Assembly (NCBI RefSeq): GCF_031877795.1 | Contig: NC_133971.1 | Location: forward strand, 95,424,654 to 95,488,653 | DNA from: Strix aluco | Taxonomy: Eukaryota; Chordata; Aves; Strigiformes; Strigidae | Reading direction: 5' to 3' | DNA: 64,000 nucleotides | Shown here: positions 46,101 to 63,378 of the stretch, one piece after another | Layout: each line of letters starts with the position of its first letter | Numbering within the stretch: the stretch's first letter is position 1 | Position numbers and translations under genes: made by a program | Notes under the pieces: generated by a model | Databases searched by the model: none | Seen by the model: the letters and a program-made list of their open reading frames with translations, nothing else | Told to the model about the DNA's origin: nothing

Positions 46101-49100
46101 TTCATATATAAATCGATATTTAAGCATTCCTTTTACAGCAAAGTATTTATTACAGTGGCATATTTAGTACCTGACTGCAAGATAATGACAGTAATTCCAT
46201 AAATATTTTAATAGAATTTCAAGCATTAAATTAAATTACATGAAGTGTAACCTTGAGGGAGAGAGACTGCTAAACATTGTGTAAATGAACCTGTCAAACT
46301 GGTAAAAAATACCATTTATTGTGCAGCCTTTTTCTCTACTTTACGCAGTCAGCAGGAGATATTTGTAACCCATATATTTAGGTTAATCCAGGGCCTTCAG
46401 TTTACATAAAAACTTCCCTTGGGAATGGCCCATGCAGCTACTTTTTGCAGCAGACCCTTGCTCCTCAGAAGCAGGGAGGTCCTGCTGTGGTGATCTTTGT
46501 GTTGTGAAATACCAGCATGATAAAAATGTTGGATATAAAAATGTCTGCAAACACCTTTCTAATGTGTGTGTACGCTGAACTTTAAATACAGGCTTACATC
46601 TTTCTTTTCACACAGAACATTTTACCAGTCGTGAACAGACTAGGTATAAAGAAATATGTGAGAATGTGTCTGTCATTTTGAGTGCTTGTCTCAACCTGGT
46701 TTTAAATATGAGTCCTGTATGTGATTGTATATGTGATTTGCGTGTGTATGTTGTGTGGGTTTCTCTCCCAGGTGTCTGTAAAAGCAGCTATTAGAAAAAT
46801 CTGTATGAAATAGGAAAACTAACCTAAGAACTTACAATATTAATAAGTAATATTTAACATTGTATTGTGAATTATTATTAATTATACTTTCCAGAGCATG
46901 AAAGCACCTTAAAAACATTAAATAATCTCGAATGCTGCATACGATAGTTGTTTCACGTAAGAAACTCTTGACTACTTCAAATACTCTCCTGGCTAGAACG
47001 TTGCAGATCCCGTTTGGTACTGATGATTTACGTGCCCTACTGCCATACCATGGTAACCAAAGGAGTTGTATTGGGGCTATACTCTCTGTAAAATATTTCC
47101 AGTGCTAATTCATCTGGAGTAATTTTCTCTGAGGATTGCCTACAATTCAAAGTAATGTGGAAATAATGCCCTTCAAGAGGGTTGGACACATTATGTCTTT
47201 GGTTTTTTTTTTTTTAGAAGACCAGCTTGAGCTGCTTACCTTGAAGGCTGACAGAGGTCTGGAGAGCTCAACCGAAGATTTGTCAAATAATCTGGAAATT
47301 GATGGCAGTCCTTCTACAACAGATATACTAGGAGCAGAAAGATCATGGGAAAATGCTCCAGGTGCTTTGTAAGTAAACATATATTTGGGGCTAATTTGTG
47401 ACAATGTGTGATGTATTTAATTGCTTTTGTATATAGATTATAAGCAACGGTGCTGTGGCTTGTACATAAAGAAAGGATTTAGTATTAAATTTCTTGCTAG
47501 TGCTAAATATTTGATACTTCAAGGTCAGGATATGGCTCCCTTTTTCACTGACTTGCAAAGAGTGTTCTCAATATTATTGCTGCCTTTTAATATCTTTGTA
47601 TATCAGTGATTTATAAGAAATACTTATTTCAGGACAAAAATTAGTTCATGGAACTTAAACTGACAGATTTACTAGTTTATGATTAATAGCTTATGAAAAA
47701 CAAGTTAATAGTGGGAAGTCTATTTTTTTAGAAAAAGCAGTGTGGCTTTGGGAAGTTTTGGAGCAGTCTTAGGAGTGAAATTTCAGTTGTGGAGGAACTG
47801 AAAGGTTATTTCATAAGATCAAAGAATGTTGAAAATCAGTGCTGCTTCTTAAAACTGTAGGAAATTCTCGTAAGGTGTGTGCAGTTCTGGGTGTTGTCTG
47901 TCAGTTTGCCCTGGAAGACTTTGAACTTTTGGTTCATTTTAGCAGTATTTAACAGGTGAGTAAAAGTCTCAAACTGCAGCATTCCTGCACGCGATACTAG
48001 AAGCGGTGCTGTTCGTGTCCTGTTGAGAGGGAGGCTAATGGGCTAACCTCTTGCTAGCCACTGGAATACCCACACAGGAGACCAGCCCTGGAAATCGGGC
48101 TCCATTAATGATTCTGAGACTAATAGTTTTGAATTAAAATACCTTAGAGGCTGTAGAAGAATTAGAAGTCAATAAGCAGAAGGTAACTATTTTTCTGTAG
48201 AAGTTGAGTATTAATGGAGGAATACCAGGTGTAAGAAAAACTTCCATGTGTAATACATTATAGTTAAGAAGTCCTTACCTTCCCTTTTTTGTTCACTTGA
48301 TTTTTTACAGCTACCCAGGTTTTAATTATCCTGGCAAAACTGGAAAAAAATAGTTGTGTGTTTCTCTCTAGTGCTGACAGGACTACTCAGTGCCCCCTTG
48401 GTGTTGCATTGATGCAATATAGCTGGTTTCATCGTCATAACTATATCCTAAACCAATCCTTTTTGTTTCTAAACCTGTTCTTATTCTCCGTTGTGTGTTT
48501 AATGTTGGTTTAGCAAACCACCAGGGCCTGTGTGCTGTGAGGACATGGAGAGTGCTCCACCACTCCCCAGGGCAGATATCATACATAAGTTCTTGGAAGA
48601 CTGTTTAAATGACAAAAATAAGGTCAGTAAAATTGAGTATTTATTTCTGAGAGTGCCCAAAATACATATAACTGGTAAATATAAGAAGGAGAATACCTAT
48701 AAATTGTTTTTTCTTCTTTTTATAATATATAAAGTGGAAAGTCTGCAGTAGGTTAGCCATATCTGAGCATGATGAATTCATACAGTTATTAAATCCTATA
48801 GTCTTACCCTTGGTCACAATTACTATTAAGAAAGCATCTAACTATGAAATGCTTTGTTTAGTAATAGTTTGACTTTTACACTCCATATTTTGTTGAAATA
48901 ATAATTTTCCTGGCTCGAGTAAAGGAAGAATTTTTTTGTTATTGATGTATTAAATACCACAAATTTCCTAGCCTGGCTGATGTACTGTTGGGTACGAGTC
49001 AAGTTCAAGAGTTAAGTAATATATTTCTTATTATTAATGCTGTTGCACTGGAATTGGATCGTGGATTGAATTTACTCTTTTGATTATTCATTATTGTATT

Positions 49101-59926: not shown

Positions 59927-59935
59927 CTGTACTAA

Positions 59936-60013
59936 ATGGATAACCAGGCATTTGAAATGCATGGAGAGAGCATACAAAGTTCTTCAAAAGGAAAAGAGTG
60001 GCCTAAGAAAGAG
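59936..60013 (+). CDS. candidate 5' coding exon of the DYNAP-like cupin gene
   Basis: A short open stretch lies between a good acceptor (CTATTTCAG at 59926) and a donor (AAGAG/GTACCA at 60013). Its ATG at 59936 encodes 26 residues starting MDNQAFEMHGESIQ and ending KGKEWPKKE. It ends in phase 0, which is what the next exon (61736, open from its first base) needs. The hydrophilic composition suits a cytoplasmic tail ahead of the membrane segment. The donor is not strong, and other exons may lie between, so this is a proposal. Confidence 0.45.
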
Positions 60014-61735: not shown

Positions 61736-63378
61736 GAAAGAAAGGGCAGCTGGCCCCTAATGAAAGTCTTTCTAGTTTGTCTGTTGGCCTGTGTTATCAC
61801 CACGGCAATAGGAGTGCTGGCCCTGTCTTTGGTCTACGTAAAGAACCCTGCCTTTGTAAAAGAGACGGGTGTGACAGACGATGGCACATCTTCCCCAAAA
61901 CCAGCTGAAAAAAGTGTGGATGTCAAATTCCAGTTCCTGAATCATCTGGGGAAATCAAAGGTAAATTGTTCCTCTTGTGCACTAATAGTCTAGCATCATA
62001 TCTAAAAGTTTAATGAATTAATTTCACCTATTTTTTAAGTGTTAGGTGATCGCTCTAAACCTGTTCTCCAGGCTTCTTTTGTAATCCAAAACTTCCTGAC
62101 AGCGTTTCACTCCAATTCATAACAGATGTCAGAAGTGGTATGGATCTCTGGAGTGCCTCTTGGAGAGCTGAATATTTGCTCCAACAGATTAAGCTTGCAA
62201 GACAAGACAACCATTTTATGTGTGATTCTCTGTAGAGTATGAAATCCTGAGAAACAATACCAGAAAAATCTAATTTTAGTACAGACTAACCTCTTCGTTC
62301 TTAGGACTGGATTCAAACAAATGTTGCAAGAAAAAATGAACTCCGTGTTCTTGTTTCAGTGGGCTAAAATGAATTAATTGACAATGTAATGAAGCCCTAG
62401 GAATTATGTAGCTTTGGTTTAGGTGTATTTTGATACTTAGACAAACATATCCTTTGAGCAAACTCTAAAGACATACTCCATCCTCTAAATATAACTTCAT
62501 CTAAAAAATAATTCCTGATTCATTTTTGCTTTTCAGCAAAAGAGGGAAAAGGATAGATTAGATAGTAGGGCACTTGAAGCTAATAACAGCCATCCTGGTA
62601 CTTTTTCTTGTTAGCTTTTACTATGTAATTAATTTTTAAACAAAACATGGTTTTAAGAATGCAAATAAAAGTGTTTAAGAGGAGAGCAACCCTTTTAATA
62701 CGCCCTTCCTCGGTGCAAGGGGATTCTTTCAAGTACAAAACATGTTCTAGAGGGAGTACAAATATTGGGAAAGAAATAGCTTCAGGTGCAAATAGTTTGC
62801 AACCGTAGAAATTCCGGAAAACGTCTTACTTGGAAAATGTTCTGAATATTTTGAATCTAAAAGATTAAGCATATATGTAACTCCTTTCCCAAATCAAAGT
62901 CCAGAATGATGTAAAAAGAGGCGGTGCGGATAATTTTATTCTTGATATCACTATTTCTCTCTCATTTGTAGAAACAATACATCACAACATGAGAAAGTAT
63001 ATAAATGATTGTGAAAAATGGTTAAAGTACATACAGAGAGAATCCTCGCTGAGAAAAGGAATAGGTCCCTTCGGTATTGCCCTGACCAAGAACTTTCTGA
63101 ACTATTTTTGTATTGTTTGGTCACCGCTGTCAACAATTAATACAATTCTCCAACTCTCACTAACTTTACAGGTACATAACTACCCAGGTGGTGAAATTCA
63201 GTGGGCAAGATTCAGGAAGGATGTAAACGAATATCAAAGCGATGAAGAAATGGAATTTGGAAAAAGTATCAATAACCATCGCTCCAAAATGACTTTTGGA
63301 ACCTTACGGATCAAAAGCAAAGGGCTTCGGGCTCCCCACTGGCATTTTAATGCCAATGAACACGGCTACCTCCTACAG
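61736..63378 (+). CDS. DYNAP-like membrane-anchored cupin protein (partial, 3' end off the right edge)
   Basis: Two exons, 61736-61960 and 63172-63378, joined in phase 0 (acceptors TAATTTCAG and CTTTACAG; donors AAG/GTAAAT and CAG/GTATTA). The first encodes a hydrophobic segment of about 24 residues, KVFLVCLLACVITTAIGVLA, then a linker. The join gives NHLGKSK/VHNYPGGEIQWAR, typical of the strand that opens a germin/oxalate-decarboxylase-type cupin barrel. The second exon contains APHWHFNANEHGYLLQ, the full cupin motif 1 with His, His and Glu ligands for a Mn-type metal. The membrane segment is long and uncleaved-looking, so a type II protein with an outside cupin domain is likely. The frame is open upstream of the ATG at 61760, back to the acceptor, so that ATG is probably internal. 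Position after C18orf54 is that of mammalian DYNAP. Function as oxalate decarboxylase is not shown. Confidence 0.75.
61961..63171 (+). other. intron of the DYNAP-like gene
   Basis: Intron separating the membrane-segment exon from the cupin exon. An open frame extends upstream of the cupin exon to 62989, but it has intron-like composition. The direct join of the two exons reconstitutes the cupin strand without it, so it is read as intronic. Confidence 0.6.

Follow-up and report, generated by a model that had tools for sequence, protein, structure and literature searches.

The gene that occupies the position of DYNAP in Strix aluco is best explained overall as the bird orthologue of DYNAP, probably a type II membrane protein with a metal-binding bicupin as ectodomain. 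That it is an intact counterpart of DYNAP, with a two-domain cupin ectodomain which the human protein lacks, is well supported. The computed basis consists of an intact open gene model, two full sets of metal ligands, the CLLAC match and the synteny; from this we infer splicing, topology, metal, catalysis, substrate and direction of change. The window is the whole stretch of 64,000 nucleotides which was analysed, C41:95424654-95488653, where C41 is a 97-Mb contig in a genome of 1.41 Gb. The contig was extended rightward past the end of the window, and the extended numbering continues the window positions.

A sequence-only reading of the window had proposed a membrane exon at 61736-61960 joined in phase to a cupin exon at 63172-63378 with an H-x-H-x4-E motif. 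Both exons are located as claimed; each has AG before and GT after it, and the junction is in phase 0. A disrupted cupin frame downstream had been named beforehand as evidence against the proposal, and the frame is undisrupted. On the extended contig the gene was completed as a model of nine coding exons, from an ATG at 59936 to a stop ending at extended 68796. The spliced product is 464 amino acids long and has no internal stops, and the introns are all GT-AG. The protein starts with MDNQAFEMHGESIQ and is laid out as a short N-terminal tail, one membrane segment and two cupin domains.

Exon 1, the candidate first coding exon (59927..60013, forward strand as all the exons), lies between the acceptor ...ctatttcag and a phase 0 donor, GAG followed by gtacca. 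It has 9 bases of 5' UTR ending in TAA, then the ATG, and it encodes MDNQAFEMHGESIQSSSKGKEWPKKE, the predicted cytoplasmic tail, a piece for which we know of no homologue. This is the weakest exon of the model, placed by splice signals and position only. Given a start at this upstream ATG, the one in the membrane exon would code for an internal Met. Exon 2 (61736..61960) carries the CLLAC transmembrane segment, recognised by the PF15675 match and by hydropathy, and a juxtamembrane stalk. Exon 3 (63172..63378) is the start of cupin domain 1. It encodes GGEIQWARF ... APHWHFNANEHGYLLQ, which contains the H-x-H-x4-E motif, and Pfam and the alignment place Arg154, His157, His159 and Glu164 here. 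Exon 4 (extended 64198-64431) has His204 and the lid, and the PF00190 match of the genome search sits here; exon 5 (extended 65629-65782) encodes the linker. These are followed by exon 6 (extended 66936-67045), exon 7 (extended 67181-67294) with Gly354, His357, His359 and Glu364, exon 8 (extended 67934-68080) with His402 and exon 9 (extended 68671-68796) with the stop. Exons 3-4 encode the core of domain 1 and exons 6-9 that of domain 2, with introns at different places in the two.

In intron 4 the stretch at extended 64775-65161 is 95% identical to another place in the second copy of the region, on contig C40 (see below), and similar-looking repeat DNA seems to extend almost to the acceptor of exon 5. 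The stretch resembles a CR1 element, and such a repeat might have an effect on the splicing of exon 5.

The membrane exon was likened to DYNAP by the sequence-only reading, and an independent domain model finds the likeness as well. PF15675 (CLLAC), a family which we take to include DYNAP, matches residues 32-60 at 1.1e-13, with 50.9 bits for the whole protein and 53.7 bits for the first 101 residues against a cut-off of 25. When the 1.41-Gb genome was searched in six frames, two of the 19 reported places were above the cut-off, and these are the two copies of this gene; the match is therefore not a generic membrane-helix match. The human DYNAP sequence used for comparison, which is provisional, scores 63 bits against PF15675. 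It comprises 210 residues (22.53 kDa), and the 38-residue stretch richest in Ser/Thr has 21 of them; the printed values for human dynAP are 210 amino acids and 22.5 kDa (PMC8329785, PMC4540312), with Ser/Thr at 20 of 38 positions in the rich stretch (PMC4540312). A local alignment of the bird protein with the provisional human sequence scores 124, the maximum being 51 in 1000 full shuffles and 89 in 2000 shuffles of the helix letters.

The exon structure agrees in phase and differs slightly in place. Human dynAP is a type II protein with its C-terminus outside, and its membrane region is encoded in exon 3, as is the S/T-rich tail (PMC8329785, PMC4540312). According to the published isoforms 48 codons lie in exons 0 and 1', and 55 residues are lacking when exon 2 is (PMC8329785). 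By these sizes and the provisional sequence, human exon 3 would begin in phase 0, with eight residues ahead of the conserved Trp. In the bird, exon 2 likewise begins in phase 0, but with five residues ahead of this Trp, three codons off the human start. Human DYNAP (dynactin-associated protein, with the dynAP isoforms a-c) is thus like the bird protein in its CLLAC segment (KVFL-CLLACVI-TAIGVL), its type II orientation, the phase of the intron shortly before the segment and the position between C18orf54 and RAB27B. It is unlike it in having 210 amino acids, a Ser/Thr-rich stub outside and no cupin, whereas the bird has no such stub and carries the bicupin in that place. The human N-terminal tail is longer than that of the bird and not recognisably similar. 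Taken together we consider it very likely that the gene is the orthologue of DYNAP.

The neighbours point the same way. Upstream, at 47214..47324 on the forward strand, there is a match to the LAS2 family (PF15792); LAS2 is the name which we take to stand for C18orf54. With 25.5 bits it is just under the curated cut-off of 27 bits, and no other place was reported at E <= 1 except its copy on C40. Downstream, RAB27B begins at C41:95544954 (extended 120301), also on the forward strand, with pieces to 95555499. It is 100% identical over 52 residues to the human protein, while the next most similar first exon, on contig C12, reaches 87%. The human order is MBD2, POLI, STARD6, C18orf54, DYNAP and RAB27B (Table 2, PMC4868023), and the bird gene lies between the LAS2 match and RAB27B on one strand, as at human DYNAP. 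A search with the START family for STARD6 as a further neighbour gave no match on C41 at E <= 0.01. The proposal made from the window, a membrane-anchored gene of bicupin type at the DYNAP position, thus agrees with the CLLAC match, with the order and strand of LAS2 and RAB27B and with the Cupin_1 match given below.

Contig C40 (49.3 Mb) has the same region in inverted orientation; the 20 kb compared show 27 mismatches and 2 gaps, an identity of 99.76%. Both neighbours, LAS2 and RAB27B, have their matches there too, and the nine exons are all letter for letter identical to those on C41. This identity says little about selection, because there are just 27 mismatches in 20 kb of all DNA. The inverted near-identical pair spans 1.49-1.57 Mb on C40 and 95.47-95.56 Mb on C41. 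C41 is probably the Z chromosome, C40 the W chromosome and the shared stretch pseudoautosomal; DCC, of the same block, is placed on Z in birds by published work (PMC5327424). The near-identical region probably reaches further, to judge from a weak CLLAC-like pair at C41:94598680 and C40:2448682. Just behind the gene, at about extended 69840-70340, there is a minisatellite of short cctcggctcaaa-like units which matches several places in the copy.

Bird studies name DYNAP at this position (PMC5327406, PMC5327424), and they bear on the question whether the gene is decaying or a pseudogene. In chicken-like Galliformes, as in Passeriformes, the block is described as lost or disrupted (PMC5327406, PMC5327424), which would suit such a reading. 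Against it stand the nine intact exons, with neither frameshift nor stop and with both copies identical in the exons, and the transcriptome data, in which DYNAP is found in all Galliformes examined and in some Passeriformes (PMC5327406); we regard decay as very improbable. The two papers conflict on the Galliformes, since PMC5327424 counts DYNAP as absent in Galliformes and Passeriformes, in its account also not found elsewhere by tblastn, where PMC5327406 has transcripts.

The two cupin domains are recognised by Pfam, with Cupin_1 matching in two stretches at 4.5e-35 and Cupin_2 at 2.2e-15. The nearest PDB sequences are oxalate decarboxylases, 6tzp (4.2e-17) and 1j58 (1.9e-16), followed by 2vqa (Sll1358) at 1.9e-14; the three alignments shown by this search are crossed, in that the first OxdC domain stands opposite domain 2 of the bird and the second opposite domain 1. 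For a comparison residue by residue the bird protein was aligned with 89 bacterial bicupins, 80 from an alignment-led scan and 9 from plasmids. The H-x-H-x4-E motif and the later His are present in both bird domains, so all eight metal ligands are kept: H157, H159, E164 and H204 in domain 1 and H357, H359, E364 and H402 in domain 2. Each of these eight columns is conserved in 88 or 89 of the 89 relatives. When a profile made of the 89 bacterial proteins, with the bird left out, was run against the bird protein only, a single co-linear match extended through both domains (2e-53). With this we consider it highly likely, judged from the residues kept, that the ectodomain binds metal.

The residues around the metals are less uniform. 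In OxdC, as in the related CsOxOx, roles have been described for Arg92, Arg270, Glu162, Glu333 and the lid (PMC3585803). The equivalent of Arg92 is Arg154 in the bird and Arg in 89/89 relatives. In domain 2, at the place of Arg270, the bird has Gly354 where 88 of the 89 relatives have Arg and one has a gap. The bird lid, TTHEELQT, has 8 residues, a length found in no other of the 90 alignment rows (10 residues in 75, 7 in 14). Its Glu225 stands in a column with Glu in 75/89, and Glu224 instead matches the His-Glu of a group of bicupins with short lids; the lid is two residues shorter than the common form. The column taken for Glu333 of OxdC has Leu416 in the bird, and Glu in only 5/89 relatives. 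Against TIGR03404, the oxalate decarboxylase bicupin family, the bird protein scores 104.9 bits (E 4.8e-30), below the cut-off of 254.2.

An oxalate-decarboxylase-like cupin had been proposed, and part of this stands: the protein is a bicupin and its best PDB match is an oxalate decarboxylase, but it misses TIGR03404, has a short lid and has Gly354 in place of the second Arg. By sequence the name oxalate decarboxylase is not established, and with the cut-off missed and the Arg missing the protein should not be filed under it. It should be added that these two points do not show that an action like that of oxalate decarboxylase is impossible.

A comparison with characterised bicupins gives the same mixed picture. 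Bacillus subtilis OxdC/YvrK (PDB 1j58, 1uw8) is like the bird protein a bicupin with two metal sites, and its Arg92 has, by alignment with relatives, an equivalent in domain 1 of the bird; unlike the bird protein, OxdC has no membrane anchor, has Arg270 where the bird has Gly354 and belongs to a family whose cut-off the bird misses. The OxdC lid is SENS with Glu162 (PMC3585803), against TTHEELQT in the bird. CsOxOx of Ceriporiopsis subvermispora, compared by its description and not by sequence, is a eukaryotic Mn bicupin of the same general kind, but with the lid DASN and an active-site Arg in both domains (PMC3585803). The Synechocystis protein Sll1358 (PDB 2vqa) is a Mn bicupin too, but it is cyanobacterial, has no membrane anchor and scores below OxdC in the PDB sequence search. 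We take Sll1358 to be MncA.

The cupins could belong to a gene of their own. There would then be two adjoining genes, a short DYNAP made of exons 1-2 and ending with VNCSSCALIV in intron 2, and a separate cupin gene, whose start would be exon 3 itself or an ATG in the open frame that directly precedes this exon. Read without splicing, exon 2 does run into a stop ten residues further on, and the product would resemble a short DYNAP. Upstream of exon 3 its reading frame stays open as far as 62881 and contains an ATG, and human exon 3 carries the membrane region and the whole tail (PMC8329785). However, the acceptor of exon 3 is good (ctaactttacag) and joins exon 2 in phase 0. Furthermore, the last residues of exon 2, FQFLNHLGKSK, match gap-free (score 11) with WQYFYNLKGSA, the opening of the second repeat; both stand equally far ahead of GG..QWAR. 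By shuffling, this likeness has a p of 0.0013 with the composition of exon 2 and 0.0049 with that of the protein. The repeat likeness, the matching phase and the good acceptor favour one gene with its first cupin strand in the membrane exon, and two genes appear quite improbable. It is the internal-repeat test which makes this placing of the strand seem right. A further proof by the bacterial profile was considered and had to be discarded, as the profile match begins at residue 139 (envelope 116), past the exon 2/3 junction. As a separate observation, an unspliced exon 2 would add VNCSSCALIV and a stop (61961-61993), making a DYNAP-like short isoform of about 111 residues.

In the one-gene model the single hydrophobic segment lies at residues about 37-59, with a hydropathy maximum of 2.76 at residues 37-55. 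Seven Lys/Arg precede the helix (residues 18-36) and two follow it (residues 59-80), and behind the helix there are four N-x-S/T sequons, at 189, 280, 319 and 324. The charge bias and the sequons fit a type II topology with the cupins outside, and bird DYNAP is accordingly predicted to be a type II membrane bicupin. An external, metal-binding cupin had been suggested from the window, and the completed protein is consistent with this prediction.

A search for relatives and a tree had been suggested as checks; relatives were looked for in prokaryotes, phages, plasmids, IMG/VR and PDB, and a tree of domains was built. Pattern scans with the bird protein by itself, which catch close relatives only, found none in genome_contigs (84,980 species) or in IMG/VR. 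Among plasmids, tblastn gave 47 records, of which 30 are listed at 23.9-27.3% identity. An alignment-led scan of genome_contigs, led by one motif, gave at least 571 relatives, the best 80 of them 23-29% identical. A recent transfer from a bacterium or virus was rejected on these grounds: the scans gave no close relative, and the listed ones are 23-29% identical. Searches for a second cupin locus of such kind in this genome, one by each of two approaches with the best candidates scored, showed none.

The domain tree was built from 64 domain sequences, those of the bird and of 31 bacterial proteins left from 88 usable ones after thinning at 65% identity; L122 was dropped as incomplete. The two bird domains are sisters (100/97), and they stand on the side of an uncharacterised bacterial group with short lids, across a branch with 100/99. 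Forcing the bird to join the canonical oxalate decarboxylase clade gave a p-AU of 0.363, which is not rejected. Forcing domain 1 to join the first domains of the short-lid group gave 0.032, and domain 2 with the second domains 0.050; on 107 columns the domain-by-domain pairing is thus marginally rejected. A shared origin of the bird and bacterial domain order was discarded on the sister relation and this marginal rejection. Both bird domains have an insert after GG.(I/F)QWAR which is absent in the seven bacterial proteins compared. We tentatively read the sister domains and the common insert as a separate duplication or a gene conversion. None of the 62 bacterial domains compared is more than 37% identical to a bird domain, and the bird domains share 42% with each other. 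Against this reading, the 42% is in itself not unusual, because in the 31 bacterial proteins the first domain is on average 35%, and up to 46%, identical to the second.

These data bear on how bird and human DYNAP came to differ. The cupin might be an acquisition of the sauropsid line, added by exon shuffling or microbial transfer to a DYNAP that had always been short. It is true that the relatives found are all bacterial, in searches which covered prokaryotes, phages, plasmids, IMG/VR and PDB, and that the human isoforms in print are all short (PMC8329785). But no close prokaryotic or viral relative was found, the best 80 of 571 being the distant ones mentioned above, and the intron positions, which are unlike in the two bird domains, do not look young. 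The different intron places and the distant relatives point to an old gene and not to a young transfer, and capture we find unlikely. As the human isoforms in print consist of the tail, the helix and the Ser/Thr-rich stub only, the cupin was probably lost on the way to mammals; of the two directions, from a comparison which covers bird and human, we favour this loss with good probability over a gain in the bird line.

If the bicupin is an enzyme, its mode of action may be pictured as follows. About 36 residues would lie inside, followed by the one CLLAC helix and a lumenal or extracellular bicupin of ~370 residues. Two metal ions would be bound by the bicupin; going by its characterised relatives, they are most likely Mn(II). 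The likelier active site would be domain 1, with its four metal ligands, the Arg equivalent to Arg92 and a lid with two glutamates. Domain 2, which keeps its metal ligands and has lost the Arg, probably serves assembly or electron transfer. For its activity OxdC depends on the N-terminal Mn, and a role as electron-hole donor has been suggested for the other Mn (PMC8254039). The likeliest chemistry would be a Mn/O2-dependent reaction that splits or oxidises a small carboxylate, either on the surface of the cell or within the secretory pathway/Golgi, and by analogy with OxdC oxalate would be the first candidate substrate. We think it somewhat more probable that the ectodomain is catalytically active than that it is inert, while oxalate as its substrate is a tentative suggestion.

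The ectodomain could on the other hand be a non-catalytic module binding a metal or ligand, for storage, sensing or adhesion. The active-site Arg of domain 2 is lost and the lid is not of the decarboxylase type, and some cupins, e.g. the seed storage proteins, are catalytically inactive (PMC3765361). Most of the seed-storage cluster is however without metal (PMC3765361), whereas the bird protein keeps its eight metal ligands and Arg154 as well. A non-catalytic module is to us a serious possibility, but not the one we would expect.

To our knowledge no vertebrate bicupin of the oxalate-decarboxylase class has been described. In the literature searched, by titles, we found no description of one. 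Nor did the literature searched, the papers on the bird region included, yield an account of a cupin in DYNAP; predicted-protein databases may hold the bird sequence. Human DYNAP is a small protein of unknown physiological role; it enhances the phosphorylation of Akt and causes transformation of mouse cells (PMC4540312). Should the bird orthologue indeed be a metal bicupin anchored in the membrane, human DYNAP would be the remnant of a protein with a metal-binding ectodomain, perhaps an enzyme. This would, if true, explain the short Ser/Thr-rich stub on the outside of the human protein and give a route to the ancestral function.

A bird bicupin also bears on the handling of oxalate, which mammals, as far as we know, do not break down themselves. 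The opposite view is stated in PMC9498451. The most far-reaching picture would be that the amniote ancestor had a metal bicupin on its cell surface which degraded oxalate or a related small acid, that birds and perhaps other sauropsids kept it as DYNAP, and that mammals reduced it to a membrane stub re-used for signalling; a native cupin enzyme of the oxalate class would on this picture have existed in land vertebrates and disappeared in mammals. As a whole we regard this as doubtful.

The bacterial bicupins with a lid of 7 residues are 14 of the 89 relatives, and the 100/99 branch separates them from the canonical oxalate decarboxylases. Five of the seven lids printed start with x-His-Glu-x-Pro (L031, L043, L062, L066 and L080), while those of L089 and L106 are DHDSPQD and SNEEPED; the bird lid starts T-THE. 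The lids of Parachlamydiaceae L066 (NHEMPED), Chloroflexia L080 (THEQPQT), Paracoccus L031 (RHERPED) and Phyllobacterium L043 (RHERPED) share the His-Glu start with the bird, and L066, L080 and L031 stand on its side of the tree, L043 being outside the tree. Unlike the bird protein these bicupins have no membrane anchor that could be seen in the alignment, and they are 20-26% identical to it. Those in the tree differ further in that their own two domains do not pair with each other as those of the bird do. L031 and L043 come from annotated plasmid records, where they are named only 'cupin domain-containing protein'.
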